From: Spinacia oleracea
Lineage: Eukaryota > Streptophyta > Magnoliopsida > Caryophyllales > Amaranthaceae
Direction: 5' to 3'
DNA length: 64,000 bases
NCBI RefSeq assembly: GCF_020520425.1
Contig: NC_079489.1
Span: 94,406,810 to 94,470,809 of the forward strand
Shown: positions 41,446 to 63,582 of the stretch, in pieces
Layout of the letters: the number at the start of each line of letters is the position of its first letter
Numbering within the stretch: the first letter of the stretch is position 1
Translations under genes and position numbers: made by a program
The notes under the pieces: model-generated
The model's database searches: none
The model's input: only the letters and a program-made list of their open reading frames with translations
Told to the model about the DNA's origin: nothing

Positions 41446-44400
41446 ATGGCGGAAGAATCAGCAGAGATGAAACAAATGGGGAAGATGATAATAGCAATAG
41501 ATGAGAGCGAGTGTAGTAGCTACGCGCTTAAGTGGGCGTTGCAAAATCTTGATGATAAGCTCAAATCTGGTGTTATTCTTTTTACAGCGGTTTCTATTGA
41601 CTACAAGGGCGTCTTTGCTGGCGGTTATGGCTCTGTTCGTAAGTTCTTTCTCTTTTTTCTCTCCTGTCTTTTTAATTACTCCGTATATTTATGGGTTCAT
41701 TTTTTGAATTGTTTCATTTTTCTTTTCTGCCTGAAATTAATGCGTTTGACATTAAATCGGGTTTTTCTAAAGATTAGAACAACTTCAGTGACAAGCTAAT
41801 CATGTGATCTAAAATTTTAAGTTAATTGACTTAATACCTAGTTTGTAAAATCAATTCACTAAATCAGGGAGGTGGAAAAGAAATTCCAAATCAATACTAC
41901 TACCTCCGTTCCTAATTTTGTCACATCATTTGCTATAAAGTTAATATTGAAACGATAATCTCAAATTGAGATCTTTGTTAGTGGAAAATTTCCAACCTTG
42001 CGAATTCGATAACCTTCTTTAAATAATTAAAATTGAAATTGAAATTATATGAATCTATTTCACTTCTTTTGTTGCAACTTATACATGTGAAGTTAATTGA
42101 ACTTATATTAACTTATTTTGTCTTAAATAAACTTATCTTTGAAAATTTCTAAACTTATCTTATACTCCCTCCGTTCCATAATTATCTTCCTGTTTGACCA
42201 AAAACACGGATTTTAAGAAAAGTGGGATATAGTACATGAAAATGTGGAATATAGTACATGAAAATGTGGAATAAAGTACAAATGATGATTGAGTTGTATG
42301 GAAAAGTGGAATAAAGAACATGTGAAAGAGAATATAGTAAATGGGAAAAATAGAATATAGTACATGGGTGGGGTTTTCAATTCAATTTTAATTAATATAG
42401 TACATGATAAAGTGGGGACCTTAGTAGCCAAAATTAGAAACAGGAAGATAATTTTGGGACGCTCGTTTAGGACAGCATGAAGATAATTTTGGGACGGAGG
42501 GAGTATTATCTAAAATTATCTTTAACTTCACATAAATTATTACTCTGTATTTATGAATGAAAACAAAATAAGACGAGTCATAGTGTAAGTGGGATAAATG
42601 CGAAATAAACAATGGCTATATAAGGGTACTAAATTATTTCAAAAATGTGAAAGTTAAGAAAGAAATAAATAAAATAAGTGGGAGTGGGACCATGAGAAGA
42701 GTGATGAGATGTTACTAAATACTCCTATCAGTCCCTAAATACTCACACCGCTTCTTTTTTTGGCCGTCCCTTAATACTTGCACCGTTTCTATAAATGAAA
42801 TTTTTTATCAATATTATATTATTTCTCACACTTATCTACTACCCCACCTACACCCCTATTCTTTACAAAATATTATTTAAAAATTCACATACTCCACTCA
42901 CCACTCCCCACCTCTTACACATTTCACATTAACAATATTAAAAAAATACCCGACTATCAACTAACACCATTAAATTAATAAGTCAATTCAAATGTCTTAA
43001 ACTCCGCAAACCGGTGCGAGTATTAAAGGACGGAGGGAGTATGTACTCTCTCTGTCATGTCTTCTTTATCATTTTTTTTTTGAATTTTAAGGCTATTTAC
43101 GATTGAGCAAATTCTCCTAAATTCTTTTCAATATTATATTTCAAAACCTATTCGTGTGAAATTTTTTATATTTGTCTCGATATATAGTCTTATAATATAA
43201 AATATTTTATCATACTACCTCTGTTTTAAAAAGATCTTTACGCTTTGAAAAATGTGTCTAAAAATCAAAATTTTGACCATAAATTCTCACTATTATATCT
43301 ATCAAAAATTATCATGAGATATCTTGTTAGATTCATCTCTAAATGTATTTTATAAATATCAATTTTTTATAATTTTTTGCCATACGAAATTGGATATATT
43401 AACGGTCAAACATTACACCGGAGTCCGTGCAAATAGTAACTGTAAAGATCTTTTTGAAACGGAGGTAGTATGTATTTCAAAAACTTTTGTGTGCTCTTGA
43501 TCTACGGTATTTTACTGTACATCCAACCTAGCGCATAAAAAGTGAAAAATAAAACTCACTCAAGGTAAAAAGTGACCCAGACCAAAGATAAAAGTGTACC
43601 CGACTAAAGATATAAGTCACCTTATTCAAGGACTAAAATTACCTTACTCATTGATAAATGTGACCCTAACAAATGAAAATGTGACCCTAACAATAATCAA
43701 TGAAGTGACTTTTATCAAGAGTGATATGCTTGTTACAAGTTCTAAGTATGACCAATACAACACCAACAACGAGAATATACCAATACACAAGCGTAATATA
43801 AATATACCAATACACAAGCGTAATGTATGCTTGTTACAAGTTCTAAGTATGACCAATACAACACCAACAACGAGAATATACCAATACACAAGCGTAATAT
43901 AAATAGTAGGCTATGTGGGGCTTGAACCCACACTATGTGCAATATTGTACTTTGTTTTACCTTTTGAGTTAATAGCCTTGAAAAATAAGGTAACTTATAA
44001 CTACAATAAAGAAAACTAATAACATCAATAAGGGTAACTAAAATAACAGAATAGGTGCGGATAACCTTCCTTTTTTGGACCGCCACACGATATATTATCG
44101 TAGATCGGTCTTTCTGAAAAGTTTGTGTATGTATTTAGAGTTATTCGTTTAAACATTTGATTGAAATTTGTGCAAAAGGCAAATAGGCCTAACAAAAGAG
44201 AAAAGATGGAGTACGTATATTTTTTTTTCAATGCTATTACGCTAATGTATTGTATTAAAAACAATTTTTTTATGAAATAAAATAAACTCAAACTTTGTCA
44301 TGTATCATTCGAGAAATTAAAGACACGGTATAAAATTATCTCGTATATGTATTATTTTGTTCATTTGCCTTTAAATTTATGTTCTAGATCTTTTGAATTT

Positions 44401-47400: not shown

Positions 47401-50400
47401 TTTAATCTTTTTATAATGGAAAATTTGTAATTATTAATCCAATTTTTGCCCGATTTTCTTTAATTAAGCCTACCTATGCGATATTTCTAAATAATCCAAC
47501 CTTTATGACCCAACTACTATTATTAAGCCTAACAAGTTACTAACATGCTATAGGCGGTATTCACCCTTACGTGGCATATAACAATTATAATTTATTTATT
47601 TTCCTTATTTCCTTTAATTGCTATTTTAATTTTCGTTCCTCTCTCCTCTGCGATTTTCTGCTTCATCTCTGAACTCCTCTCCATTATTTCTCTTCTACCT
47701 CTTCTCCACCATTGTCGATCCCTCATACCTCTCAATTCGAAGTTCATCAAAAATAATCAGCAATTGTTATGACTGGGGTAAAACAATTGCCTGGATCTGG
47801 ATCTTCTTCAAATTCAAGGTTTTTTTTTCTTTCAAAATTTTCAACAAGACCATAATAACCAACATCCCACAACATAAAAAAAAAAAACTATATTATTGCA
47901 ACAACTAGGGTTTTTACGAACTGACCATCAAGGAAGCCCAAAATTCAAAATTTACCAAAACAGGAACAAAAACGCTAAGGTTCATAAGTTCACCTTTAAT
48001 TGTACGATTTTGGAGACGAAATTTGAATGCGCGTGGATGAAGTCACCTATTTCCACAAGAAAATCGCTGATGATGTCATGAACCAGTACAATTGTGGTTG
48101 AAGCAGAAGTGATGGAGGAGAGAGGAATTGAAACACGTTACAGAGAAGAGAAGGGTTAAGGGTTTTTTTGAAAAAAAACATGAAATACTTGTTTAGGTGG
48201 CAAGTGATGATGACGTGTCCAATATTTTAGCAGGGAAATCAACTTTAGGTTGTCAACGTTTTTAACGTTGACTTTGTAGCAGGTAACCGGTCATCCAGGC
48301 TTAATAATAGTAGTTGGGTCATAAAGGTTGGATTATTTAGAAATATCGCATAGGTAGGCTTAATTAAAGAAAATCGGGCAAAGGTTGGATTAATAATTAC
48401 AAATTTTCCTTGACTTTGTTGCAGGTAACCGGTCATCCAGACTTAATAATAGTAGTTGGGTCATAAAGGTTGGATTATTTAGAAATATCGCATAGGTAGG
48501 CTTAATTAAAGAAAACCGGGCAAAGGTTGGATTAATAATTACAAATTTTCCTTTTATAATTACTAAAGTACAAAGTTTAAGAAAATAGTTTGAAATATAC
48601 ACTTTTTTTTTATCTGGTTTAGTATATTTGTGTGAAATAGAAAACATTACAAAATGGAGGTAGTATCTGAAGTGAAATGTTTCTACCCTTTAGATGGGGC
48701 ACGTCTCATATACTTCCTTTGTTCTTTTGTTCTTTTTTATCCAATTTAAGAAGGACTGTTATATAGTGATTGTTAAACCGTTTTTTGAAATTCTAATTTA
48801 TTATGGGCTTGTGTTTTAAGTGAAAATGTATGATTTAGATAGAGGTGGAATTTGAAGGTTGAAAAAATATATATTATATGATGAATTAATATTGAGTGTT
48901 AAAAGAGGAGATGACATGGAAGAGGCTAATATATATATTGGACTAATTTGATGTAGAATGAGGAAGATAAAATGGAAGACGCGTTGAAACTGTAAAGTAA
49001 CAAATTGAAAAAAAAAACAAAACAAATTGATGGATGATATGGGGAGATGACATATGGTTTATAGTCATCTATGATTTTGCTTTTTAAATAATAGGTGTAG
49101 AGGTGTAGATGTTAAAGGGGGAGATGGAGTGGAAGAAGCTAATGAAAACCTGTATTGGATGATTGGTGAATTTGATGTTGAAATGGGATAATATAATTTA
49201 CTAACATATTACCTCTATTTTATTAAGTTCTTTACGCTTTGAAAATGTGTCCAACAGTTTAAACTTTGACCATATATTCTCACTATTATGTCTATCCAAA
49301 ATTATCATGAGATATCTTGTTAGATTCATCTCGAAATTTATTTTATAAATATCAACTTTTTATATTTTTTTACCATACTTAATTATAATTAGATATATTA
49401 ACAATCAAACATCGCACCGGTGTCCGTGCAAATAGTAAATGTAAATAACTAATTGAAACAAAGGTAGTATGATATTGTTAAGTGTATAATACTATAATCG
49501 ACATTTGAGTATTAAACTAGTTATCCCACATTAAAGAGATAGAAAGAAATTGACTAATAGATTGTGGCCTACTCTACCTATCACCAATTGGTTAAATTTA
49601 GGATGGAACGTTGTTAGGCTTATACATGGTCAATCTCTTCTCTTGTATAGGCTTAGTGTATGGTCTTGTGAGTTTATCATGGTATCGGAGCAACTCATTG
49701 TTTGTCACAAAAAGGGAGGGCCCACCGATGTTGAAGAATTTGCAATATGGAGAAGAGTTGAAGATCTGTTGGAGAAAGTAGCCCAACATTAGTGAATGCC
49801 CAAGTGGGGGTTTCAAGCTTAAAGGTGGCTCACATGTGAAGAGGAGTGTTAAGAGTATAATCCATATGTGAGTATTAAAATAGTTATCTCACATTGAATA
49901 AATAGAAAGGGAATGACTAACATATACAATTGGTAGGCTCTACCTATCACCAATTGGATTTAGGATGAAACCCCTTCAATCTTATATATGGTCAATCTCA
50001 TGGGCTTGTTTATGGTCCCGTCAGACTTACTAGATATGGACCATGTGTCCATGTGGTACATACTCCAAGGGTAAACCAAAAATGTCCATTCAGCAAAGTG
50101 TTTAGTTAAATAATTTATTAGTGAAGTATAATTACTCCTCTAATATCATTATCCTAGTTGTTCCACTTTCTAGACTTCTAGTACTTGCAAGTTTGACAAT
50201 GCAAAATTTTGTGTACTACTTTGTATATCATTACAACATTTACTTGGTGCATTTTTTGTTGTCTAATTAAACAGCTGCTGAACTACTGACATCAATCCGG
50301 GACAATCAGAACAAGCTTGCAAATTGTCTCCTAACGAAAGCCAAAGAAATCTGTGCACAACATGGGGTATGAACTTTTGTAATACTTAGAGTGCGTTCTA

Positions 50401-53400
50401 TTCTCCTGATTTTCACTTATTTTTTTTGAACTTATCTTATCTGAACTTATTTGAACTTAAGTGAACTTATCTGAACTTATTAAAACTTATCAAAACTTAT
50501 TTTAGTTAAAAGTTGTACTTGGTCAACCATTATTTTTCCTGAACTTATCTTATCTGAACTTAACTGAACTTATCTGAACTTATTTTCTCTGAAATAAGTG
50601 GAAATAAGGTGAATAGAACAGGGCCTAATTGGTTCATCATGGAAGATTTTAGGTGTACTCTGAGTTAGAGGCAAGCTTATTCATTTGTGAATTATAAGGC
50701 AAGCTTATTCATTTGTGAATTATAAGAGCTTGATTACCTGTTAATTTTATTCTGGACTTTCTCAGCTCCTTTCTGATTCAATTATTGATTTCTCTTTAAA
50801 ATCGTTTACAGATGATCATGCATGTATGCTTTTATATTTGTGTTTTCGACGTAGCACCGGGAATGCTAAGCACTAAGCATATATACTAGAGCTTAGTCTT
50901 ATAGAATAAACATTTAGATAGAAGATCTATCACATAATTAACATCCTGTCAAAAACAAAGTTCTCAATGTGCACTTGTTGATACTCGTTGTTTGAGTTGA
51001 TGCAGGTTGATGCTGAGACCGTTTCTGTGATGGGCAATCCGAAAGAGATGATATGTGATGCTGTGGAGAAGTTTCACTGTAATTTACTTGTTATGGGAAG
51101 TCATAGCCGGGGAGCTATACAAAGGTTTGTCTAAAATTAGAGAATTTTATCTCAAGATTAAACTGTAACTTTTACAAATTATTTTGTGTTGCACAAATTA
51201 ACGTCAACTTCAAAAGATTACACATAACTTTTCTTTTTTGGCCTCTTATATACTAATTGTTCCGGGTGTGGAATGAGAACAGCTGACTGTGGGATACTGG
51301 ACTCCTGTCGAGATTGCCGGTTGATATCTGCACAACAGAATGGATTAACTAGCCTCGGGGGTGGTTCGAGGATCCCCCCTCCGATGCTTAAGTAAGATTA
51401 CTGAGAGATTAAGAGATGATTAAGAGATGATTAGGAGATGATTAGAGAGTAAGAAAGAAGTGTGTTTAAGTGTTTGTGTACCTCATAGCAATAAATGAGG
51501 TGCTCCTTATATAGTCCAATCCAAGGGTACGATCTGTTAGGTCCCTTGTGGTTAGATAGCGACCTGTTGATAGTGACCCTTGGTTGGTTGTCTTCATGAT
51601 AATGCCGGTATGGGGTCTGGCAAATAATGCCGGTTGAGGATATTTACCTAAGATGACCAGATTACCTGCAGGTTGAGTTTACATACGGGGAGTTCTGCCG
51701 GTACCAGGTGGTGCCGGTAGGACACCCCGTACAACTAGCCCCCTCAGAGTAAGCGCATATATGACAATTATTGCGCTTGCTCTGAGTTTAATGGGAAAAA
51801 ATAAGTATTATTTTGATACCTGGTGGTACAACTAGCCCCCTCAGAGTGAAGCGCGGGCGCTGACTGTGTTGCGAGTGTTTCTGAGAAAAGACCGCGAACA
51901 GTTTGTCGACTGCCTTCGCTCTGAATGAGGAACTTTGTTGCTAGGTCCTTTGGAAAAAAGATTTGGACGACTAGCCCCCTTGTAAAAGGTTTGGACGACT
52001 AGACCCCTTGAAAAAAGATTTGGACGACTAGCCCCCTTGAAAAAAGTTTGGACGACTAGCCCCCTTGAAAAATATTTTGACGAATAGCCCCCTTGTAAAA
52101 GGTTTGGACGACTAGCTCCTTTGAAAAGAGATTTGGACGACTAGCCCCCTTGAAAAAAGATTTGGACGACTAGCTCCCTTGAAAAAGGATTTTGACGACT
52201 AGCTCCCTTGAAAAAGGATTTTGACGACTAGCCCCCTTGTAAAAGGTTTGGACGACTAGCGCCCTTGAAAAAAGTTTTTGACGACTAGCCCCCTTGTAAA
52301 AGGTTTGGACGACTAGCCCCTTGAAAAAGGATTTGGACGACTAGCCCCCTTGAAAAAAGATTTGGACGACTAGCCCCTTTGAAAAAAGATTTTAACGACT
52401 AGCCCCCTTGAAGATGCTGTGGGTGACTAGGCATTATTTTGAATTTTTATCGTGCAAGTGGCGGGAGATTGTTACCCACGTTCTCCCACGTGGCCTTCAT
52501 CCCGAGCGTTATTTGGTGCGCTTAATCTGGGTCGTTCATTCTGAGTGTAACTGACCTTTTAACTGCTTGACTTACGGGTCGTGACGTTTTGCATACCCCC
52601 CTTTTGACCCATAAAAGGCCTTAACCTCTTCGAGATTTTTTATTTCACCCCCTTTTTTCTTGAACTTCCGACCTTTCTCTCTCTCTTCCCCTGGGGTTTT
52701 TCGCTGAACTTTGTTGCTGTTTGATTCTCAAGCTTTTGCTGTTGTTGTGGTTTGAATTTTCCAAGGTTTATTAGCCTCCCTTTTCGTTGTTACCGAATTT
52801 CGGGTTTTTCTTCCTCTCTTATTTTTGTGCTTGATTTTCTTTCGTTTATGTGTTTTTTGTAGGTTCTCCCTTTTTTTCTCTTTCGCGTGCTTCATTTGTA
52901 TTTCAAACTCCAGAAAAACAGTAGGTATCCCCTCCTCTATTTTGCTACTCTTTGCTATACATATATTTTTGTTTTTGCATTTCTGTGGTGTCAAATTTTT
53001 TAATTATCCGCCGCCTTAAAAACAAAATGACCAAAAATTTGGGTGGGGACAACCCTTCTTCTCAGTCTTCTGGGTTTACCGGTTGGAGTGTTCCTCAAGA
53101 GAGTAATTGTAGTTGGGCCCGGGAGGAGCCGTACTCTCAATCTAATTTAAGACGGACTGCCATTCGTGAGGTTTATGACGAGGGTTTGAATCAGGCTGAG
53201 AGAGAGCGTTGTTATGCCCTACATCATCTGCGGGCTCGAATGATACGGGAAATGAGGTCTCATGAGCATCCTATTCCGGCTTCTGAGCCTGCTTTAGATG
53301 TTTCTCCCCTTTCGGTGCGGTATTATATTCGTGATTACCGGGAATTCTTGGATTCCGCCGGCAGTGGCCACGGGCAGTATGGAACTAATACTGGCAACTT

Positions 53401-56400
53401 CAGTGTTTCTTTTGGTCAGGCTGATAGGATGGCTTCCGAACAACAGGCTAGCACTAGTGGCCGCCGCCCTGGTAAAGAGCCTGTTAATGATGATATTGAT
53501 ATGGCTACCGGCAAATACTCCGATGGTGATTCCATCTTCGAGGATTCCGCCGGCAAGGATGTTGATGCTCATAGGGGTGATGATGGTGAAGATGCTGGCG
53601 TTTCTGGTAGGAATGACGCAGACATTGGAGACGACGGTATTGGTTCAGATGATGACGATCCGGCCGACGTGATAGTCGTTGAAGTTCTTGCGGATGAGGC
53701 TAAAGAACAGCCTTATTTTACCGACGACTCCGCGGATGTTCATAGGAAAGAAGAACACCCTCCCTTAAAAAGTATTCCTCGTACAACCGCGATTTTGACG
53801 TCTTGGCGCGATCTGATCATAAAGAAGAATCATGTGGTTCATGGAGGGACTTTTCTTGGATTGCCGGCCGAGTATAAGCTGGTAGTGCCGGATGAAGGTG
53901 CAACTATATTTGACTGTCCTCCCGGCCATATTGCTGTGTATGCGAAGCATTTCGATTTTGGGCTTCGCTTTCCTCTGCACCCCTTTGTTGAGAAAATATT
54001 CCGGGCTTGGAACGTCTGCTTGGCCCAAGTTACCCCTACTACCATCAGAACTGTTATCTCATATGTCTGGTTGTGTTTGTTTAAACAATGGCCGCTGACG
54101 TTGAATTTGTTCAAGCGGCTGTTATGGTTGAAGAAGGATGGAGAGACGGGGTGGATGTCGGCGTATAGCGCAACGAAGAGAAAGACTGTGCATCCTCCTT
54201 TGTCGAGCTGTAAAGATTGGCAGGATCGCTTTTACTTCGTTCAAGTTCCTGACGGCTTTTTGCTCCGACGGACATTTTCTAAACCCCGGCCTCGAATGGA
54301 GCAGTATAACCAGTGTGGTTTGGGCCGACGGGAGAGAAAGGCTTTTGATTATTTGGCGTGTGACATTTTAGATGTCGGCCTCAGCAAAAAACAGGCTGTT
54401 AATCGGAATTGGCTCCCTAATGCCTATTATATTTTGGGTAATCTGCCCTTGTCCGCTGTCGGCCTTTGCAACACCCACTGCTTTGGTAAACATATTTTCA
54501 GCTGAATGGGATGTACTTATTATTGCTATTTATAGCTTTGTGTATTGCATAAGTTTTTTGCCGGTTTTAATTGAGTCGTTGTCTTTGCAGGTACTAAAAC
54601 ATTGGATAGAGAAATTCTCGGATTTGACGAGAATTGGAGACCTGTGTGTACGCAGCCTCCGCCGCCTAAGGGAAAGTACGACACCATATCAACGTACTCC
54701 ACACGGGCCTCATCCCGTCGCTCAATTGCTACTGTTGCAAAGAATCGTGTTGCCGGCGGTTCTAAAACCAAATCTTCGTCTGTCTCTATTCCAAAAACTG
54801 TGCAACCGCCCACTATGCAATCTAATCCAACCGGCCGTGGTGGGAAGACTCGAAAGAGGTTGTCACTTACTAGTGGGCGTTCTGACCCCACTAAGAAGTC
54901 TAAGGCCGCTGGCGGCGATGATGTTTCGGCTGCTGTTGACCAATACGAAATCCCTGCTGACGATGTTTTCAAAAAGACGGCTGATTCTGCTGTTGCGGTT
55001 CACCCGTTTCCGCAGCCGTCCATTGAGATTTTGGACGTGGAAGGTGGTGGCGGCGAGAATGAGGCTCCGTTTCAGCACTGTGCCACGTCGGCCGCAGTGA
55101 CAGGGGGTAATTCTAGTATGCCTCCTGTTAGTCGTAGTGAGAATCGATCTGGTGATTCTCGACTGAATTATCATCTGCCGCTTCGTACCGGCGGTTGGAT
55201 TGAGGATACCCCCTTTAAGATCCCGGAAGCAATGAAATCATGGTTCGGGTCTTCTGGCGGCGAACCCACCGATCAGTTCTACCCAAACATTGATCTGCTG
55301 TGTGGGGAGTTGGTGGCGACCGATTCTGCTAAGGACGGTGGGGATTTGGGCTACCGTGCTTTTCGGGATCTGATTACTCCTGCTGACAGGCCACAGGGTC
55401 AGATTGACGCCCCTGCTGCTCAGCATTTCAACGATTTGTACAAGGTATTTCTTGCTTAGTTTGCTACAACTTTCTATCCGGCTATTTTTGATTACTCACT
55501 TGTTTTTTTGTTTTGTTTCTTAGGCTGTTCAATCCAGCATGGATTTGTATTATGTCTATCGTTGGAACCAGATGCAGCTGACGCAAAATAGCATTGATAT
55601 TGCCGAGCTGAAGAAGCGGGCTGAGGCGGCTGAATCTGCTTTGAAGATTAATGAGAAGAAGTTGGAGAGTGCTTCTTCGGATTTGGAGGCGGCGAACCGA
55701 AGGCTGGAAGAGGTTGAGCCGAAGCTGAAGGCTGAAACTGAGAGGGCAGACGGTCTGACTGAGGAGCTGACTGATCTTAACCAGAGTTTGCCTGTGGTGA
55801 AGAAGACTGCCGCCAAGAGAGCTGTTGATAAGCTTCTCCAGTCTGACTGGTTTAATGATATTCTTACTCTGCGCCATAACGGTGGTTGGTGCGCTGCTCA
55901 TCGGGTCGTTTGCCATGTGAAGAAGCTGGATGAGGATGGGTGGCAAGAATTTGAGGATGGGTATGAGGAGAAAGAGCTGTACAAGGTTGCTACCGGCTTT
56001 GAGCCTCAGGAGCTACCCGAGGCTGTGATTTGCAATGCCAATCAAAGAACCTTGCCCCCCTTGCAAGTTCCAGAAGATGCCTACTGGTCTGGTGATGAGC
56101 ATGCCGTTTGACGGTCTTGGCAGTCATCACCCTCCTCTTCTTGCGGATCCTCTACATGTTAGGGTTTTTTAGTTTAGGCGGTTGGCTTTTAACTTTTTGC
56201 CAGATGCTGTTAGGGCACTTATTGTTGATGTAACATATCTTAGAACATCGTTTTATTGTAGGGGTGTCGGTTTTTAACCAACATCTTTTGTGCCTTGTGA
56301 TCAGCTAATCACTTCGCAAGATTTTTTGGTGATGGCTGTCGGTTTTTAGTGTTTTTTCTGCTGTAATCATGCATTTATAACAAGTAGTTTTTGATTTTAT

Positions 56401-59400
56401 TAGCATGAACTCTTGTTTGTTGTCGGCCTTTCTATATTGTTAACTTGTTTGAACGATACACTTCGAAATGATTGTTATACTTCGAAATGGAGTGCATCTT
56501 AACAGCGTTTATTTTCTCTAACATTTTTAATTACAACAATTTATTATGGACTGCTACGCTTCACAGTAAAAGTGTCCATACGGCATTTATTTTCTTTACG
56601 GCTACTAATCACATCCACATAATTCGCTGAATGCTACGCTTCACAATGGAGTGCCCTTTACCGGCAATTATTTTCTCCAAAGTTACTAATCCCATCATCC
56701 TATTATGGACTGCTACGCTTCACAGTAAAGTGCCCAAACGGCATTTATTTTCTTTACTGTTACTGATCACATCCATATAATTCACTGAATGCTACGCTTC
56801 ACAATGGAGTGCCCTTTAACGGCATTTATTTTCTCCAAAGCTACTAATCACAACAACTTTATTATGGACTGCTACGCTTCACAGTAAAGTGCCCAAACGG
56901 CATTTATTTTCTTTACTGTTACTGATCACATCCATACATTACCTTTTCGTGTTGATTTGTGCCGCGTTTGTTTTTTGCTTTTTTCTTCCTTCATTTATTG
57001 ACTGGCCGTATTTGAGGACCGCCCTAATTATACATAACAGCAAAATGCAGACTGCTATTGCAATCAGTCTGCTCATACACAATCATTATAGTTTTTCAAA
57101 CATAGTACTTTCTCAGAGTACTGGCGTTCCAGGAGTTTTTGAGCGCGGTACCATCCATTTGCATTAACCGGTATGATCCAGGAACTATTTCCTCCCATAT
57201 CTGGTATGGTCCTTCCCAATTGGCTGTCAGCTTTCCTTGAGCATTTCCTTTTCCTGTTGCCGCCGTTCTCCGCAGTACTAGGTCTCCTGCTCCTAGAGGG
57301 CGGTGCTTAACTTTCTTGTTGTATGCTCTGCTCATTCTGCTTTTGTATGCTGCCGAGCTTACTTCTGCTTTCATGCGGATTTCTGGCATGAAATCCAACT
57401 GATGTCGCAGCAGCTGATCGTTTCTCTCCTCATCGTAATGCTGGATTCGCATGGTTGGCAGAGCCATTTCTGCCGGTATCACAGCCTCAGACCCGAAGCT
57501 CAATTTAAATGGACTCTCGCCGGTAGCCTCCTTGATAGCAGTTCTGTTGCACCACAGAATTTCTGGCATAAGATCTGCCCACTTGCCTTTACAGTCTTCT
57601 AGCTTCTTTTTCAGTGCAGCCAGGATTTGCTTATTCGCCGCCTCTGCTTGCCCATTGCTCTGTGGGTGACATACTGACGAGTGAGCTAACTTTACTCTGT
57701 ATAAACCCAGGAAGCATTGTATGGGTGCACAATCAAACTGTGATCCATGATCAAAAACTATTGCATGCGGCAGCCCGAATCTTGTTATTATATTTTTCCA
57801 TATGAACTTTTTCACCTGGTTTGCCGTTATTTTTGCTACCGGCTCTGCTTCTATCCACTTGGTGAAGTAGTCCACTGCTACTATTAAGAACTTGCGCCCT
57901 CCAGTCGCCATTGGGAATGGTCCAACAATATCCATTCCCCATTGTGCGAATGGGATTGGGTTCAGAATGGGCATCAAATCATTGGCCGGCAAGTTTATCA
58001 CAACTGAAAACTTTTGACATTTCTCGCACTTTTTTACATAAGCTCGACAATCTTCTAACATTGTTGGCCAGTAATAACCTTCCCTTTGACAGATGATGGC
58101 AAGGGGTTTTCCACCGGCATGGTTCCCACATGTTCCTTCGTGCATCTCTTCGATCAGCCTTGCTGACTCGAATGCTGTCAGGCACCTTAAGAATGGCAGG
58201 CTAAATGACTTTTTGTACAACCGTCCCCACAGGATGATGTACCAAACCGAGTCCCTTCTTGTCTTTTTGGCTTCTGCCAAATCTGCTGGTAGAGCTCCAG
58301 TCTGTATGTATGTTTGGATATTATCGTACCATTCTGAGGTAGTTGTGATGGCCATGACCCGTATTACCTCCGACTCCGTACTTCGCTTATTCATGACTTC
58401 CATCATGACTGTTCTTTTCAAGTCGGCGACATTTGAACTTGCTAACTTTGATAGTGCGTCTGCCAGTGTGTTTTCTGCTCGGGGTACCAGATTAATGCTG
58501 TATTTCTCTAGTTGAGCCGACACCGACCTCAACTTCTCCAGGTATTTGACCATTGAAGGTTCTTTGGCCTCATATTCTCCGCTGAATTGACTTGCTACCA
58601 GCTGGGAGTCTGTTGTCAGTATTACTCTTTTGGCATCTGCTGCGAGGCACATTTGGATGCCGGCAATTGCTGCCTCGTATTCTGCCTCGTTGTTTGACGC
58701 GTTGAACGTAAACTTTATAGCATACTCAAAAATGTCTCCTGTTGGCGATTTCATGATTATTCCTGCCCCACTGTCTGTCTGTGCAGCTGAACCATCCACT
58801 GACACATCCCATACTTCAGCTTGTACTTCATCTTCTTGGTATGACGCTTCAACTATGAAGTCCGCCAATGCCTGGGCTTTGATTGCAGTTCTTGGCCGGA
58901 ATTCCAAGTCAAACTCGGACAACTCTATTGCCCATTTTAGCAACCGGCCTGATGTATCTAGCTTGCTGATGGCCTTTTCGAGAGGAAAGTTTGTTAGCAC
59001 TTCGATTGTATGCGCATCAAAGTATGGTCTTAACTTTCTAGTCGCGATGAGGACTGCATATGCCATTTTTTCCACCAACGTGTACCTTGTTTCTGGGCCG
59101 TTTAGCACATGGCTCACAAAATATACCGGCTGCTGCCCTTTGTTTTCTGTTTCGGCTACCAGTACTGCTGCAACTGTTTTTGGCTACGCCGATATGTACA
59201 ATTGTAATTTGCCGCCCTCTTTTGCCCTTGCTATTGTTGGCAGGTTCTTTAAGTGACTTTTTAGAGCTTCAAAAGCCTCTTCCTCTGCCGGCCCCCATTT
59301 GAACTTCTTGTTTTGCCTCAAGGTTGTGAAGAAGGGCATTTGCTTATCTGCCGACTTGCTCACGAATCTGTTTAAGGCGGCCATTTTTCCTGTCAGCCGC

Positions 59401-62400
59401 TGTATGTCTTTTACGCTTTTGGGTTGCGGCAGACTGATGATTGCTTCTACTTTTTCGGGGTTAGCGTCTATGCCACGCTCGCTGACCAAGAAACCCAGGA
59501 ATTTTCCCGACCTTACTCCGAAGACGCACTTTTTTGGGTTCAATTTCATCCTGTATTTCCTCAAAGTTTCGAAAGTTTCTCGGAGGTCGCTAACATGATC
59601 CTCCTCCTTCCGGCTTTTTACGATAGAGTCGTCTACATAGACCTCCACGTTTCTGCCTTTTTGGTCGGCAAACACCTTGTCGACCAGCCTTTGATACGTT
59701 GCCCCTGCATTCTTCAACCCGAATGGCATCGCCTTATAACAGAAAACTCCTGCATCCGTGATAAAGGCCGCCTTCTTCCTGTCTGATTTATGCAGGCTGA
59801 CCTGATGATACCCTGAGAAAGCATCTAGGAAACTAAGCATCGCATGGCCGCTAGTGGAGTCTACCAGCCTATCAATCCGTAGTAGTGGGTAGAAATCTTT
59901 CGGACATGCTCTATTAAGGTTGGTGAAATCTACGCACATTCTCCATGACCCACTTGACTTTTTTACCATTACTACGTTTGCCAACCATTCAGGGTAGTCA
60001 CATGGCTCAATGAAACCTGCCGCCAGCAGTTTATCCACCTCTTCTTATATTGCTGTCATTTTTTCCGTGGAGAAATTACGTTTTTTCTGCCGTACAGGCC
60101 TAACATTTCTGTCGGCGTTTAATCGGTGAACCATTATCTCTGGATCGATACCAGGCATCTCATCCGCCGAGAATGCGAAGATGTCCGCGTGCTCTCTCAG
60201 CAAGCTTATGAGGTTAACCTTCATGTCACTCCCCATTTCTGTACCGATCACGACTGTTCTATCCATGTTTCCAACCTCCAGCTCGATATTTTCTGTCAGA
60301 CCATCTGGCATTGGTCTTGGTGCTGATACCGGCCTCTCATCAAAGTGTTCCATGTTCAGGTCGGTTCGACCCCTTTTTGTGCAGCTCTTCCTTTTTGACA
60401 GTTGTTCCTGTCTTGCCGGCTTAGTAGTCAAGTGTACCTCTTGCCTTGCCGGCTCAGTAGTCAAATTCACTTCTGGGACCATCCTTCCCGGTGTTCTCAA
60501 AGCAGTCAAGTAACAGGACCTTGCTGCCAACTGACTTCCCCTTATCTTTGCCGGCCTTTCCAGGTTCGACATATATATCATTGTCAAGTGATAGGTGGAG
60601 ACTACCGCCTGCACGTCATGTATGAATGGGCGACCGATGATCACATTGTAGGCCGCTGGTACTTTAATGATTAGGAAATCCACCATGAGATCTCGCATTT
60701 CAGATCCTTCTCCGATTTTCACCGGCAGCCTTATACTACCCTCTGGGTACACTGTAGATCCTGAGAAACCGATTACTGGGTAGTTCACCCTTTGAAGCTC
60801 GTCCTCTGGTATGTGCAGTTGTTTGAAGGCTTCCCAGAAGATGATGTGAGCTGCCGCCGTCTACCAGTACTCTGTTCACATCGGCATTTGCTATATCAAT
60901 TGTAAGAACTAGTGGGTCATCATGCGGAAAAATGATGCCTCTGCAATCCGACTCCGAGAATGTCATCACTGGTATGCTGGGTGGGTTAGGCCACACTCTT
61001 GTGTTATGAAAGTTTACCATGTGCCTGTGTTCCTCCAAGCTTCTACTGGCGCCGCTTATTGTCCCTCCGTGGACTGGGCCGCCAGAAATTACTGGCACTG
61101 GTTTCCGGCTGTTTTTGCTCGATTCTAGGCGGCTGATATGACTGCTCGATTCTAGGGTATTGTTGTTGATTTTGCTGTTGTGGCCGGTATGAATTGGTAG
61201 GGTTTCCCCCCACCGAGTTGTTGTTACCATTTCCTTGCCTCGCCCTATACTGCGAGAAATACCCCTTTCTGACCATATCCTCAATGTTATCTTTGAGGTC
61301 TCTGCAGTCCTCTGTTAGGTGGCCGTGCTCATTATGGAAGTCACAGAATTTCTTGACATTCCTTTCCCTACTCTGCATTGGTGGCGGCCTTCTCCAGCCG
61401 TCCATCTTGTTGTTTATGTTATAAATTGCCGTCCGCGGTGTGTTCAGCGGAGTGTAGTTATCAAAGAGTCCTCTGGACTCCCTTCTGTCTTGCCGGCTTC
61501 TCTGCCCTTGTGGATTGGCATTTCTGTTATTCTGGTTTCTCTGGCCTGCCCCTTGCTGATTATTGCTCTGATGAAAATTATTTCCTCCTTTTCCCGTCTG
61601 TGGGTTATAGCCTGGATTGTACCCGACATTTCCGCCGGTTTCCACTACCACATTGGAGATCTTCATCATTTCATCCCCCCTGATGTACTCGTTGGCCTTG
61701 TGCAGGACGTCACCCAGATTGGTGTATGACTTCCGGCTGAGATATTTCTTGAATTCGCACTCTTGCATTCCCCTCATAAGAGCCAGAACAGCAACCTCCT
61801 GCTGCAAATTGGGAATAGTGATTGACTCGTTGTTAAAGCGGGTGAGATAATCCCTTAACGGCTCTCTATCTCTTTGAGCGAACGACATCAACTCTCCCGA
61901 TGATTTTTTTCTCTTCTGTTTGCTCACAAATCGTGACAAAAACGACGCCTGCAGCTGTCGGAAACTGTATATGGAGTGTGCCTCTATGCCCTTATACCAG
62001 CTCGCTGCAACTCCTAGGAGTGTAGATGGGAATACTTTGCACCACATGGCATCAGAATCAGTGTACAGCATCATGTGCTGTTCGAATGTGGTGCAGTGAT
62101 CCTCCGGATCCGTCGTCCCATCGTATCTCCCTGTCGGGATTTTTATCCTTTCCATCCTTTCTTCTAGGATCTCTCGGCACAGAGGAGAATCCTTTGGCTG
62201 GATTGTCTGCCGTCTAGCTATCTGTAGAACCGGCGCTCTTCGTTCATATTCCGCGATGGGGACTTGCTCTGTTTCAGGCCATTCTGTTTCCGCCAGATCC
62301 GAGCGCTTTCTTTTTCTGGGGTGTTTTCTTGATTCAGGGCGATTAGGAGATCCCTAACAGGTAACTGGGGAACTGCCGACCTGGTCTTTCTTAGACTGTC

Positions 62401-63582
62401 GACTGACCCTAGCTGCGGCGAGGCTGGTAGCTCTGACAAAGCGGCCATCACCGCTGACAGTGTTTTCAATTGCTCTCCCGTGAATACTTCCGATAGAGGA
62501 GACAGACGCTCCTGCAGCGTCTGCTCCAGCGGAGTTTTCGGTTGCTCTCTGGCAGGGCTTTCTATTTCTAACTCATCATCGTCCTCCACTGTAAATTCCC
62601 TTTGTGCCGGTATCGAGGTGTTTTTTGTTGCTGGGCTTATAACTGATTGTGCTTATGACGGATGGGCGGGGTTTAGAAGTGAGGGTTGGAACTTGGAGAT
62701 TGTCGCCGGTTGCAGGGTTGTTGCCTTTTCTTGACTTTTCTTTGATTTTTTACCGTCTTTCTGTGAGAAATCCATGTTGACTGTTCTACCGTTTCAAGGG
62801 ATAAGGTCCTCTCCTTCTAGCGCCAATTGTTCCGAGTGTGGAATGAGAACAGCTGACTGTGGGATACTGGACTCCTGTCGAGATTGCCGGTTGATATCTG
62901 CACAACAGAATGGATTAACTAGCCTCGGGGGTGGTTCGAGGATCCCCCCTCCGATGCTTAAGTAAGATTACTGAGAGATTAAGAGATGATTAAGAGATGA
63001 TTAGGAGATGATTAGAGAGTAAGAAAGAAGTGTGTTTAAGTGTTTGTGTACCTCATAGCAATAAATGAGGTGCTCCTTATATAGACCAATCCAAGGTTAC
63101 GATCTGGTAGGTCCCTTGTGGTTAGATAGCGACCTGTTGATAGTGACCCTTGGTTGGTTGTCTTCATGATAATGCCGGTATGGGGTCTGGCAAATAATGC
63201 CGGTTGAGGATATTTACCTAAGATGACCAGATTACCTGCAGGTTGAGTTTACATACGGGGAGTTCTGCCGGTACCAGGTGGTGCCGGTAGGACACCCCGT
63301 ACAACTAGCCCCCTTAGAGTAAGCGCATATATGACAATTATTGCGCTTGCTCTGAGTTTAATGGGAAAAAATAAGTATTATTTTGATACCTGGTGGTACA
63401 CTAATAGTGTACTGAGGGTCTGTTTGGTTGAGATTACACATAACTTTTCTTTTTTCAGTTTTTGGCCTCTTATATACTAATATACAGTACATCTTTCTTG
63501 CAGGGCTTTTCTTGGAAGTGTTAGCAACTATTGCATTAATAATGCAAAGTGTCCTGTTCTTGTTGTAAGGCAACAAGTTTGA
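41446..63582 (+). CDS. Universal stress protein (UspA family), four exons
   Basis: Exons are 41446-41638, 50275-50366, 51006-51124 and 63504-63582, all with GT-AG borders. They total 483 bases, 160 residues plus stop. Residues 1-64 give the N-terminal strand and helix (GKMIIAIDESECSSYALKWAL). Exon 2 supplies the usual amphipathic helix ending KAKEICAQHG. Exons 3-4 carry the nucleotide-binding loop MGSHSRGAIQRAFLGSVSN and the final strand CPVLVV. Family members are small cytosolic/nuclear alpha/beta proteins, many binding ATP, induced by stress. The loop follows the ATP-type pattern with Ser replacing the second Gly of G-2X-G. Length and exon phases suit a normal plant USP. Introns 1 (8.6 kb) and 3 (12.4 kb) are swollen by transposons, but every exon is open. 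ATG 41446 follows the purine-rich context TAAAAATGG. Confidence 0.9.
42165..42503. mobile_element. Stowaway-type MITE
   Basis: A 339-base element with ends CTCCCTCCGTTCCATAATTA and, reversed, CTCCCTCCGTCCCAAAATTA, flanked by TA. It has an internal repeat of GTGGAATATAGTACATGAAA. It lies in USP intron 1. Confidence 0.88.
42722..43039. mobile_element. Stowaway-type MITE
   Basis: A 318-base element flanked by TA. The left end is CTCCTATCAGTCCCTAAATA and the reversed right end CTCCCTCCGTCCTTTAATA. A second internal block near 42764-42792 repeats the end, suggesting an internal duplication. Confidence 0.82.
43215..43468. mobile_element. Stowaway-like MITE, CTACCTC family
   Basis: A 254-base element flanked by TA, with ends CTACCTCTGTTTTAAAAAGA and reversed CTACCTCCGTTTCAAAAAGA. 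A related, more diverged copy lies at 49209-49467 in the same intron. Confidence 0.88.
43728..43907. repeat. Tandem duplication, about 99-base unit
   Basis: The block ATGCTTGTTACAAGTTCTAA through CACAAGCGTAAT occurs at 43728 and again at 43827. Inside it, AATATACCAATACACAAGCG is itself repeated. It abuts the tRNA-like relic. Confidence 0.85.
43908..43978 (-). other. tRNA-like relic (possible SINE head)
   Basis: On the minus strand 71 bases show a perfect 7-base acceptor pair (AGGCTAT with ATAGCCT) and a perfect T arm, GTGGG-TTCAAGC-CCCAC, matching a pol III B box. The D and anticodon arms do not fold well, so it is not a working tRNA. A tRNA pseudogene or the head of an old SINE are the options. 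Confidence 0.4.
45121..45402. mobile_element. Stowaway-type MITE
   Basis: A 282-base element flanked by TA, with ends CTCCCTCCGTATTTATTTAA and reversed CTCCCTCGGTATTTATTTAA. A second inner copy of the end (CTCTTAAATAAATACGG, 45344-45361) suggests a duplicated or nested right end. Confidence 0.88.
45403..46740. other. USP intron 1 sequence without a gene
   Basis: AT-rich with short open frames only. It contains the hairpin listed at 45867-45943, an (AAAAT)n run at 45802-45824 and an isolated MITE end ACGGAGGGAGTA near 46473-46484. Nothing else was recognised. Confidence 0.5.
45867..45943. repeat. GC-rich imperfect palindrome
   Basis: CACCAGGAAGTGACAC on the left pairs with GTGTCATTTCTGGTG on the right (about 14 of 15). 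The loop itself contains the palindrome CGACCGGTCG. It is a sharp GC island in AT-rich intron DNA. It could be a tiny MITE or a stem-loop; no target duplication is evident. Confidence 0.6.
46741..47262 (+). mobile_element. Small non-autonomous Helitron
   Basis: A 522-base element. It starts A|TCTATACTAATATATTAAAA at 46741 and ends with hairpin CCGGGG-CATC-GCCCGG (47235-47250), a short spacer and CTAG (47259-47262) before host T. All the Helitron hallmarks are present. No coding capacity. Confidence 0.9.
47418..48551. mobile_element. Mutator-like element with a duplicated right terminus
   Basis: An 1134-base element flanked by the perfect 9-base duplication TTTTATAAT (47409-47417 and 48552-48560). 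The inverted repeats are about 110-120 bases long (left 47418-47538, beginning GGAAAATTTGTAATTATTAA). The right repeat occurs twice in tandem (about 48285-48412 and 48422-48551), nearly identical. The interior (47630-48230) has a CT-rich leader-like stretch but no recognisable protein, so it is non-autonomous. Confidence 0.9.
48561..49208. other. USP intron 1 sequence without a gene
   Basis: AT-rich. 48890-48960 and 49100-49180 share related phrases (GAGATGACATGGAAGAGGCTAA and GAGATGGAGTGGAAGAAGCTAA), hinting at an old duplication. An isolated MITE end (GGAGGTAGTA) lies near 48656. No gene. Confidence 0.4.
49209..49467. mobile_element. Stowaway-like MITE, CTACCTC family, diverged
   Basis: A 259-base element flanked by TA that shares its internal sequence (TTTACGCTTTGAAAATGTGT, TATCATGAGATATCTTGTTA) with 43215-43468 in the same orientation. 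Its ends are more diverged. Confidence 0.8.
49476..50032 (+). mobile_element. TRIM (miniature LTR retrotransposon)
   Basis: Short direct repeats at 49476-49679 and 49847-50032, about three-quarters identical, start TGTTAAG. The primer site TGGTATCGGAGC (tRNA-Met type) is at 49680-49691 and the purine tract GAAGAGGAG precedes the second repeat. The target duplication GATAT is perfect (49471-49475 and 50033-50037). At 557 bases it cannot encode retroelement proteins, so it relied on others. The divergent LTRs suggest an old insertion. Confidence 0.85.
50388..50626. mobile_element. MITE with GTTCTATTC ends
   Basis: Ends GTGCGTTCTATTCTCC and reversed GGCCCTGTTCTATTCACC, followed by matching TTTCACTTATTT and TTTCCACTTATTT blocks. 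The interior is tandem TGAACTTATC units. The likely target is TA or TAA. It lies in USP intron 2. Confidence 0.7.
50671..50727. repeat. Tandem 28-base duplication in USP intron 2
   Basis: GGCAAGCTTATTCATTTGTG... is repeated twice head to tail with no differences in the shared part. It is probably a recent slippage event. Confidence 0.8.
51258..51830 (-). repeat. 3' LTR of the Gypsy element
   Basis: A 573-base repeat; plus-strand ends TGTTCCGGGTG and GGTGGTACA. Just outside it (51831-51842), the minus-strand purine tract GAGGGGGCTAGT is the likely plus-strand primer. Confidence 0.93.
51966..52410. repeat. 29-base minisatellite in the Gypsy 3' region
   Basis: Sixteen copies of a GACGACTAGCCCCCTTGAAA-type unit (27-29 bases; spacer variants GAAAAAAGATTTG and GTAAAAGGTTTG). 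The core ACTAGCCCCCT also occurs at the LTR/polypurine border (51831 and 51714-51760), so the array may have grown from the priming region. Confidence 0.9.
52610..52618 (+). promoter_or_regulatory. Putative TATA box of the antisense gene
   Basis: CATAAAAGG on the plus strand, followed by a CT-rich leader (52660-52700) and about 400 bases before the start codon at 53027. GTGACGT, resembling a bZIP-type site, lies at about 52580. Prediction only. Confidence 0.3.
53027..56111 (+). CDS. Antisense spliced gene of the Tat-type Gypsy element
   Basis: Three exons on the strand opposite gag-pol: 53027-54485, 54591-55444 and 55524-56111, with GT-AG introns of 105 and 79 bases. They join in frame to 966 residues with no stop. 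Parts: Ser/Gly-rich N-terminus; acidic stretch (about residues 170-240); a conserved core with DLIIKKNHVVHGGTFLGLP, FPLHPFVEKIFRAWNV and RTVISYVWLC, which I recognise as the plant 'putative gypsy type transposon' domain; a basic Ser-rich linker (about 500-620); and a C-terminal coiled coil (about 790-858, ELKKRAEAAESALK onward) before a charged tail. Tat-lineage elements are known to carry such antisense frames; their function is unknown. ATG 53027 (MTKNLGG) was chosen because the in-frame upstream part is hydrophobic and untypical. It is the only intact long coding region of the element. Confidence 0.8.
56112..56458. other. 3' region of the antisense gene
   Basis: T-rich non-coding sequence after the TGA, presumably a 3' untranslated region. 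Nothing else was recognised. Confidence 0.4.
56459..56935. repeat. Alternating 80-base repeat (about 160-base higher-order unit)
   Basis: Six half-units alternate between two types that share TGCTACGCTTCACA: one with CAGTAAAGTGCCCAAACGG, the other with CAATGGAGTGCCCTTTA. Together they make a 160-base period with three copies. It lies between the converging ends of pol and the antisense gene. Confidence 0.88.
57096..60853 (-). pseudogene. Gypsy pol: protease end, RT, RNase H, integrase, with two stops
   Basis: A single minus-strand frame interrupted by in-frame stops TAA (60045-60047) and TAG (59184-59186). RT: WRMCVDFTNLNRACPKD, YKAMPFGLKNAGATYQ and the catalytic YVDD at 59628-59639. After it come a Gypsy RNase H relic and a second, archaeal-type RNase H (VSVDGSAA...SGAGI, NNEAEYEAAIAG, TTDSQLV) typical of Tat elements. 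Integrase zinc finger HEGTCGNHAG...CEKCQ, catalytic residues in WGMDIVGPFP, FDHGSQFDC and SNGQAEAANK. It ends at 57096 without a chromodomain. All catalytic residues survive; the two nonsense codons (one base each from a sense codon) and the upstream frameshift disable it. Confidence 0.9.
60853..61130 (-). pseudogene. Gypsy gag-pol junction and protease, frameshifted
   Basis: Between the gag frame and the pol frame a third frame carries PVPVISGGPVHGG, then MTFSESDCRGIIFPHDDPLVLTI and the protease active-site segment VLVDGGSS. Switches are needed near 61125 (A-rich run) and near 60853, right after VDGGSS, where the codons for the conserved continuation sit one base out. Small indels explain both. 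A programmed shift at the first site cannot be excluded. Confidence 0.7.
61125..62775 (-). pseudogene. Gypsy gag, with a stop and a frameshift
   Basis: The probable start is ATG 62775 (MDFSQKDGKKSKKS). An in-frame TAA at 62653-62655 follows after 40 codons. The frame then continues to about 62310, where a frameshift moves coding to the frame containing ARRQTIQ and, from 62155, MERIKIPTGRYDGTTDPEDH. That part is the typical plant Gypsy retrotransposon gag domain (WYKGIEAHSIYSFRQLQASFLSRF, MRGMQECEFKKYL). A Gln/Asn-rich linker and one zinc knuckle CDFHNEHGHLTEDC follow. Gag packages the RNA; it is not translatable as one protein here. Confidence 0.85.
62811..62825 (-). other. Primer binding site of the Gypsy element
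   Basis: The minus strand reads TGGCGCTAGAAGGAG two bases inside the 5' LTR. It is a TGGCGC-type primer site as in many plant Gypsy elements; the exact tRNA is not assigned. Confidence 0.65.
62828..63400 (-). repeat. 5' LTR of the Gypsy element
   Basis: A 573-base repeat, same length as 51258-51830, with about five substitutions between them (for example near 62836, 63084 and 63313). Confidence 0.93.

Follow-up and report, generated by a model that had tools for sequence, protein, structure and literature searches.

Several plant retrotransposons are known to carry a gene that is read against their own gag-pol. In the Retand lineage, antisense open reading frames (ORFs) with a Transposase_28 domain were reported in 97% of recently active clusters; they lie between pol and the 3′ long terminal repeat (LTR), a region of 2.9–6.6 kb in Retand, and DNA binding by the domain is a published prediction (Vicient 2025, PMC11963269). 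The same paper reports Smc-type coiled-coil ORFs from this region, listed apart from these Transposase_28 (TRP28) ORFs. A survey of uninterrupted ORFs of at least 250 codons named Transposase_28 in 23% of Retand elements and posed the function of such eORFs as a question (Neumann and colleagues 2019, PMC6317226). Gene23 of the maize element Grande is likewise antisense between pol and the 3′ LTR, with its own promoter and a nuclear protein (review PMC7264820), and HBZ of human T-cell leukemia virus type 1 (HTLV-1) is a spliced antisense gene of a retroelement (PMC2099442). We analyzed a stretch of 64,000 nt of Spinacia oleracea (RefSeq assembly GCF_020520425.1, contig NC_079489.1, positions 94,406,810–94,470,809, forward strand; hereafter the window), which contains a young plant Ty3/gypsy element on the minus strand (51258–63400, 12.1 kb) with a spliced gene on the opposite strand to gag-pol, between the 3′ LTR and pol.

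The locus is similar to the TRP28 ORFs of PMC11963269 in its antisense orientation, its placement between pol and the 3′ LTR, its Transposase_28 domain, its nearby tandem arrays and its element and LTR sizes, which fall in the reported range. The minus strand encodes Gag, reverse transcriptase, RNase H, an additional RNase H and integrase. The additional RNase H is placed between RNase H and integrase in one open stretch (RT_RNaseH 3–91, RVT_3 129–247, integrase domains 342–507), as described for Ogre and Retand elements (PMC6317226). The region between pol and the 3′ LTR measures about 5.3 kb (51831–57095), inside the published Retand range, and an antisense ORF with Transposase_28 is present as in Retand elements. 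Domain order, region length and the Transposase_28 gene suggest that the element belongs to the Retand lineage (Tat clade, Ty3/gypsy), Ogre being disfavoured solely by the Transposase_28 gene. The likeness to gene23 is one of description, and the likeness to HBZ is one of layout only. The antisense Transposase_28 genes of Retand elements are known already; what is added here is their intron architecture, the measured constraint and the exchange of the locus. Neither dN/dS (nonsynonymous over synonymous divergence) nor exchange between pol backbones was met in the portions of the main text of PMC11963269 that were covered.

The gene comprises three exons joined in phases 1 and 0, which encode 966 residues with zero stops, and both introns are GT-AG; the initial annotation had proposed this structure, with two introns and three phase-matched exons, and it holds throughout. 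Its features in the window are:

52427–53026, plus strand: leader and putative promoter of the antisense gene, nearly gap-free among the aligned copies, unlike the adjoining array
53027–54485, plus strand: exon 1, ending in phase 1
53936–54133, plus strand: Transposase_28 domain, residues 304–369 (profile match; dN/dS 0.03–0.07)
54486–54590, plus strand: intron 1 (GT/AG in 30/30 copies; homologous junction in other families)
54591–55444, plus strand: exon 2, with the linker and a conserved stretch ahead of the coiled coil, ending in phase 0
54730–55110, plus strand: linker stretch with a sister-type version in the L028–L036 group (limits approximate)
54845–54904, plus strand: bipartite basic cluster KTRKR...KKSK, a putative nuclear signal
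55445–55523, plus strand: intron 2 (GT/AG in 30/30 copies; homologous junction in other families)
55524–56111, plus strand: exon 3, with the coiled coil (about 55569–55829) and the C-terminus, stop included

A profile search matched Transposase_28 (PF04195) at residues 304–369 with 31.2 bits (cut-off 26.2), and the profile matches 18/18 members of our alignment A1. The domain abounds in the genome: among 2,698 first-look candidates, 150 were scored and all 150 exceeded the cut-off. At about residues 787–873, every match to coiled-coil-type families was below its cut-off. A spliced frame of 966 codons that contains a Pfam domain far exceeds what chance would produce. PMC11963269 lists the Transposase_28 and coiled-coil ORFs apart, using ORF Finder, and the word "intron" occurs 0 times in its main text; here, in contrast, the two parts are exons of one gene with conserved intron positions. 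A survey limited to uninterrupted ORFs would count one such gene as several. No description of introns in a Retand antisense gene was found in the titles and abstract openings of the papers listed by literature searches, which is not a claim of absence from print.

We compared the gene among copies of the element. The copy listing comprised 40 rows, 35 of them full length (window included). The antisense set consisted of the window and 29 other loci (28 full-length and 2 partial copies), which places 7 full-length and 3 partial listed rows outside the set. The four splice dinucleotides are intact in 30/30 copies. Because 49 of the 176 inner intron columns vary (P ~0.07 for eight invariant columns), this is by itself modest evidence; other families of the genome provide the strong evidence. 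In L076, whose exon 1 is 47% identical, a phase-1 donor follows the Transposase_28 exon, an acceptor lies in the same place, and a donor and an acceptor stand ahead of the coiled coil. Among eight loci whose matching domain is 25–33% identical, we found the homologous phase-1 donor in 8/8, and in 6/8 a phase-0 donor and acceptor can be recognised ahead of the coiled coil. Their families present one extra intron, in the linker, and of the three loci spliced in silico one was open and two contained a stop. These observations show that the intron positions are conserved between families; splicing in vivo is probable.

Selection was estimated as dN/dS (pooled Nei–Gojobori) between and within groups of copies defined by identity (the window with L010–L027; L028–L036; L037–L038); the pairs share history and the bootstrap intervals are guides only. 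The antisense gene presents ratios of 0.302, 0.170 and 0.225 between groups (bootstrap intervals <0.38) and of 0.28 and 0.47 within the first two groups. For pol, we used stretches from 20 sister copies, several of which are short or interrupted; L013 and L023 contain nested inserts and were excluded from pol dN/dS, from the pol counts of nonsynonymous and synonymous changes (N/S) and from the reduced lesion comparison below. The pol ratios are 0.12–0.15. Between the window and the sister type L075, exon 1 yields 0.084 (0.058–0.118) at dS 0.77. The initial annotation had named ratios near 1 across copies as a result that would refute its reading, and the ratios are clearly lower (0.17–0.30 between clades). 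As controls from the same columns, the two shifted frames gave 1.04–1.48 and two of the opposite-strand frames 1.20–1.50.

The constraint varies along the protein. It is strictest in the Transposase_28 core (0.03–0.07), followed by residues 661–783 (0.09–0.11), the region surrounding the core (0.12–0.13) and the linker (0.27–0.28), with wider ranges for the acidic part (0.17–0.41), the C-terminus (0.10–0.33), the coiled coil (0.26–0.75) and the N-terminus (0.45–0.69); several of these last regions have intervals that extend to 1. The Transposase_28 region is constrained about as strictly as pol. Biallelic changes in the antisense gene shared by at least two copies have N/S of 150/201, against 205/83 for private changes (stops counted as N; p = 4.5e-13), and pol shows a parallel shift (shared 26/106, private 146/119). 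Purifying selection on the antisense protein is therefore real at the level of the family: the gene is maintained while lineages move and decays after insertion, like pol. PMC6317226 asked whether eORFs do anything, and here such a protein is found under purifying selection.

Element lineages whose pol is nearly constant have also exchanged the antisense locus. We typed exon 3 in 119 of 150 listed matches (376 candidates), the 31 omitted being mostly fragments and some whole-length matches at 44–74% identity, and integrase in all 131 rows of its listing. Elements whose exon 3 is only 78–83% identical to the window (n = 29) have a median integrase identity of 97% (87–98), close to the 98% (96–100) of elements with exon 3 at least 94% identical (n = 28, window included). 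Gene types were counted for 39 of the 40 integrase DNA matches listed (all except the window) with 47 exon-3 rows picked by place: among these nearest relatives (97–99% identical), 22 carry the gene type of the window and 17 the other type, two having been judged on fragments. The three nearest integrase relatives among those listed all carry the other type. L075 presents an integrase stretch with 98% identical DNA to that of the window, 2.1 kb downstream on the other strand, and its leader and introns have diverged from those of the window as well (about 63–82% identity). The pol synonymous distance inside the family of the window is about 0.09. Faster protein change cannot explain the two types, because synonymous sites, leader and introns have diverged while pol has not.

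A finer exchange was observed in the L028–L036 group. In the four copies plotted, the stretch at about 54.7–55.1 kb is only 58–74% identical to the window between flanks of 93–100%, and in the three copies compared this linker stretch is 92–94% identical to L075. We infer that these loci were exchanged by recombination between lineages, most simply through template switching between co-packaged RNAs; either the antisense gene or the pol part may have been the segment that moved. It is possible, and we propose it only tentatively, that elements of one pol lineage carry alternative, long-diverged and complete antisense loci (leader, introns and exons), each under purifying selection and exchanged by recombination, with the linker alone swapped at a finer scale. 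The locus would then act as a specificity module, each version recognising the element that carries it, a host factor or a silencing pathway. A swap would allow escape from control or competition, comparable to the immunity or incompatibility cassettes of other mobile elements.

All exon-3/integrase pairs within 6 kb of each other are convergent (82/82, the pair of the window included, with exon 3 identities from 100% to ~32%). The remaining 37 of the 119 typed exon-3 rows have no listed integrase nearby. These figures cover exon-3/integrase pairs and not loci L001–L008. Between the L076 family and the window, integrase is 77% and exon 3 about 35% identical, so that divergence is much faster in the antisense protein than in pol.

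The window copy itself requires a separate reading. Its gag-pol contains three nonsense codons (at about 62653, 60045 and 59184) and three frameshifts (at about 62315, 1 nt; 61092, 41 nt missing; 60847, 5 nt missing), in agreement with the three nonsense codons and about three frameshifts initially counted. None of four sister copies has the 41-nt gap, the 5-nt gap or the stop at 60045, and one of the four shares the 1-nt frameshift. For the stop at 59184, all three bases could be read in 16 of 20 sister copies, none of which has the stop. The gag–protease stretch is a single open frame in 2/4 sister copies (741 and 785 codons; 650 in a third), and copies with an intact pol frame occur elsewhere in the genome. 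The initial annotation had taken none versus about six lesions as a sign either of selection on the antisense gene or of its renewal by recombination. Given the lengths of the two genes (966 vs ~1,897 codons), all six lesions would fall in gag-pol by chance with P = 0.085. The antisense gene is free of lesions in 12 of the 28 full-length copies (window included). Among the 19 copies compared, four have an intact gene and broken pol and six the reverse, with three broken in neither and six in both.

Lesion densities in the 21 copies with both stretches were roughly similar, an outcome the initial annotation had named as counting against selection: 18 in 20,250 codons of the antisense gene (0.89 per 1000) and 25 in 17,422 codons of pol (1.43 per 1000; p = 0.13), or 8 and 15 when limited to stops (p = 0.09). 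Removing the two copies with nested inserts gave 14 in 18,319 and 17 in 16,453 codons (p = 0.47), with 5 and 12 stops (p = 0.086). Pol may carry somewhat more stops than the antisense gene; the difference is not significant. The private coding changes of the window's antisense gene amount to 11 nonsynonymous and 2 synonymous changes and 0 stops, i.e. 13 in ~2,900 sites or 0.45%, and half of the LTR divergence is 0.44%. A random change creates a stop in ~3–4% of cases, so that zero stops among 13 changes has P ~0.6. At least 11 nonsynonymous changes of 13 has P = 0.003 under the shared ratio of the family and P = 0.23 under the private-change ratio.

The frame of the window copy is open because this copy is young, and the contrast with gag-pol is due to chance and no evidence of selection, as judged from lengths, sister copies and private changes, the last of which fit an absence of constraint. 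The caution that an unconstrained 3-kb frame could stay open by chance applies to this copy since its insertion, and a young copy with one open frame can be misleading. The two explanations first offered for the contrast both apply to the family and not to this copy: selection acted on the lineages before the insertion (0.17–0.30), and exchange of the locus did occur, with nothing to show that it refreshed the gene in the window.

We regard the antisense gene as a true accessory gene carried by a retrotransposon of the Retand lineage, with a selected protein, an exchanged locus and most likely a nuclear product serving the element in trans (probability about 0.72). Its transcript would run counter to gag-pol and lose the introns by splicing; the introns would persist through transposition, since the genomic RNA corresponds to the opposite strand, on which they are not introns. 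Codon patterns show that the protein is maintained in lineages that continue moving. Each inserted copy then drifts, and lineages exchange the locus while their pol hardly changes. The protein would be brought into the nucleus by its bipartite basic cluster and would oligomerise through its coiled coil, and its Transposase_28 domain may contact DNA, chromatin or a host factor. It could then help the element in transcription, for example, or in entering the nucleus or targeting the new copy. Three versions of the linker share the basic cluster: GRGGKTRKR...KKSK (window), GRGGTRRKR...KRAR or KRVR (L030 and L075) and GRGGHATRKR...KRSK (L076). This recurrence agrees with a nuclear signal and with the nuclear protein reported for gene23. 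Short hydrophobic-plus-acidic motifs (e.g. SIEILD, VVHVEESDHE) also occur, which we take to resemble SUMO-interacting motifs, a resemblance only. The role of the gene in the Tat lineage was initially described as not known, which we judge correct. The function of the protein can now be tested, as the exons of the single gene are defined and two natural versions of it are available for comparison.

Several points weigh against the accessory-gene reading. The third opposite-strand frame also has a low ratio (0.25–0.35), which we read as a register effect since this frame contains 37 stops in its 965 codons in the window copy. Constraint on the N-terminus and the coiled coil is weak or non-significant in some comparisons, no fold was obtained for the protein, and its splicing, translation and nuclear location are deduced from sequence. 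The antisense layout, the conserved basic cluster and the occurrence of two far-diverged types with a single pol backbone (22 and 17 of 39) would also suit a nuclear brake or self-recognition factor. Such a factor, similar to HBZ in logic, would repress or tune sense transcription of the element type that encodes it, and divergent types would be exchanged to escape mutual or host control. We regard this as unlikely: no target site or repression accompanies these observations, and a helper protein fits the same facts.

The convergence of 82/82 pairs would be expected if the antisense transcript acted as RNA, through double-stranded or small interfering RNA, with the open frame secondary, a possibility raised in PMC7264820. 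Codon constraint, ratios of at least 1 in four of the five other frames, the in-frame domain and the kept splice sites indicate instead that the protein is selected; RNA as the sole role is disfavoured and very improbable, and both roles could coexist. Selection on the window copy itself, e.g. by host co-option, would account for an open frame beside a broken gag-pol. Its private changes are unlike the shared ratio of the family and similar to those of decaying copies, and 12/28 full-length copies are equally lesion-free; the private changes rule this reading out, and we give it hardly any weight. That the frame is open by chance with nothing selected describes the window copy since insertion and is refuted for the family by between-clade ratios far below 1, the Pfam domain and the junctions conserved across families, so that its probability as a general explanation is negligible.

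The element is bounded by 5-bp target duplications, identical at both ends, and its LTRs have TG...CA ends. They are about 99% alike, as initially described (5 mismatches in 573 bp; K = 0.0088). A substitution rate of 1.3e-8 per site and year is often used, which places the insertion at about a third of a million years ago. The other features of the element are:

51253–51257: target-site duplication CTAAT
51258–51830, minus strand: 3′ LTR, 573 bp, 5 mismatches relative to the 5′ LTR
51953–52447: array of 28–29-bp tandem repeats, variable from copy to copy, gapped and less alike
56469–56855: 158/159-bp tandem repeats between the convergent antisense gene and pol
57096–62787, minus strand: gag-pol with three nonsense codons and three frameshifts (gag start approximate)
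62828–63400, minus strand: 5′ LTR, 573 bp
63401–63405: target-site duplication CTAAT

The 158/159-bp repeats might terminate both convergent transcripts, which is a guess. Elsewhere in the window, we observed a possible foldback element at 47415–48554 (inverted repeats of 113–116 nt, 96–98% complementary, spaced by 0.8–0.9 kb), which contains a 142-nt direct duplication (48268–48551), and a 143-nt direct repeat (43249–43391 and 49242–49384) whose units are 89% alike and 6 kb apart.

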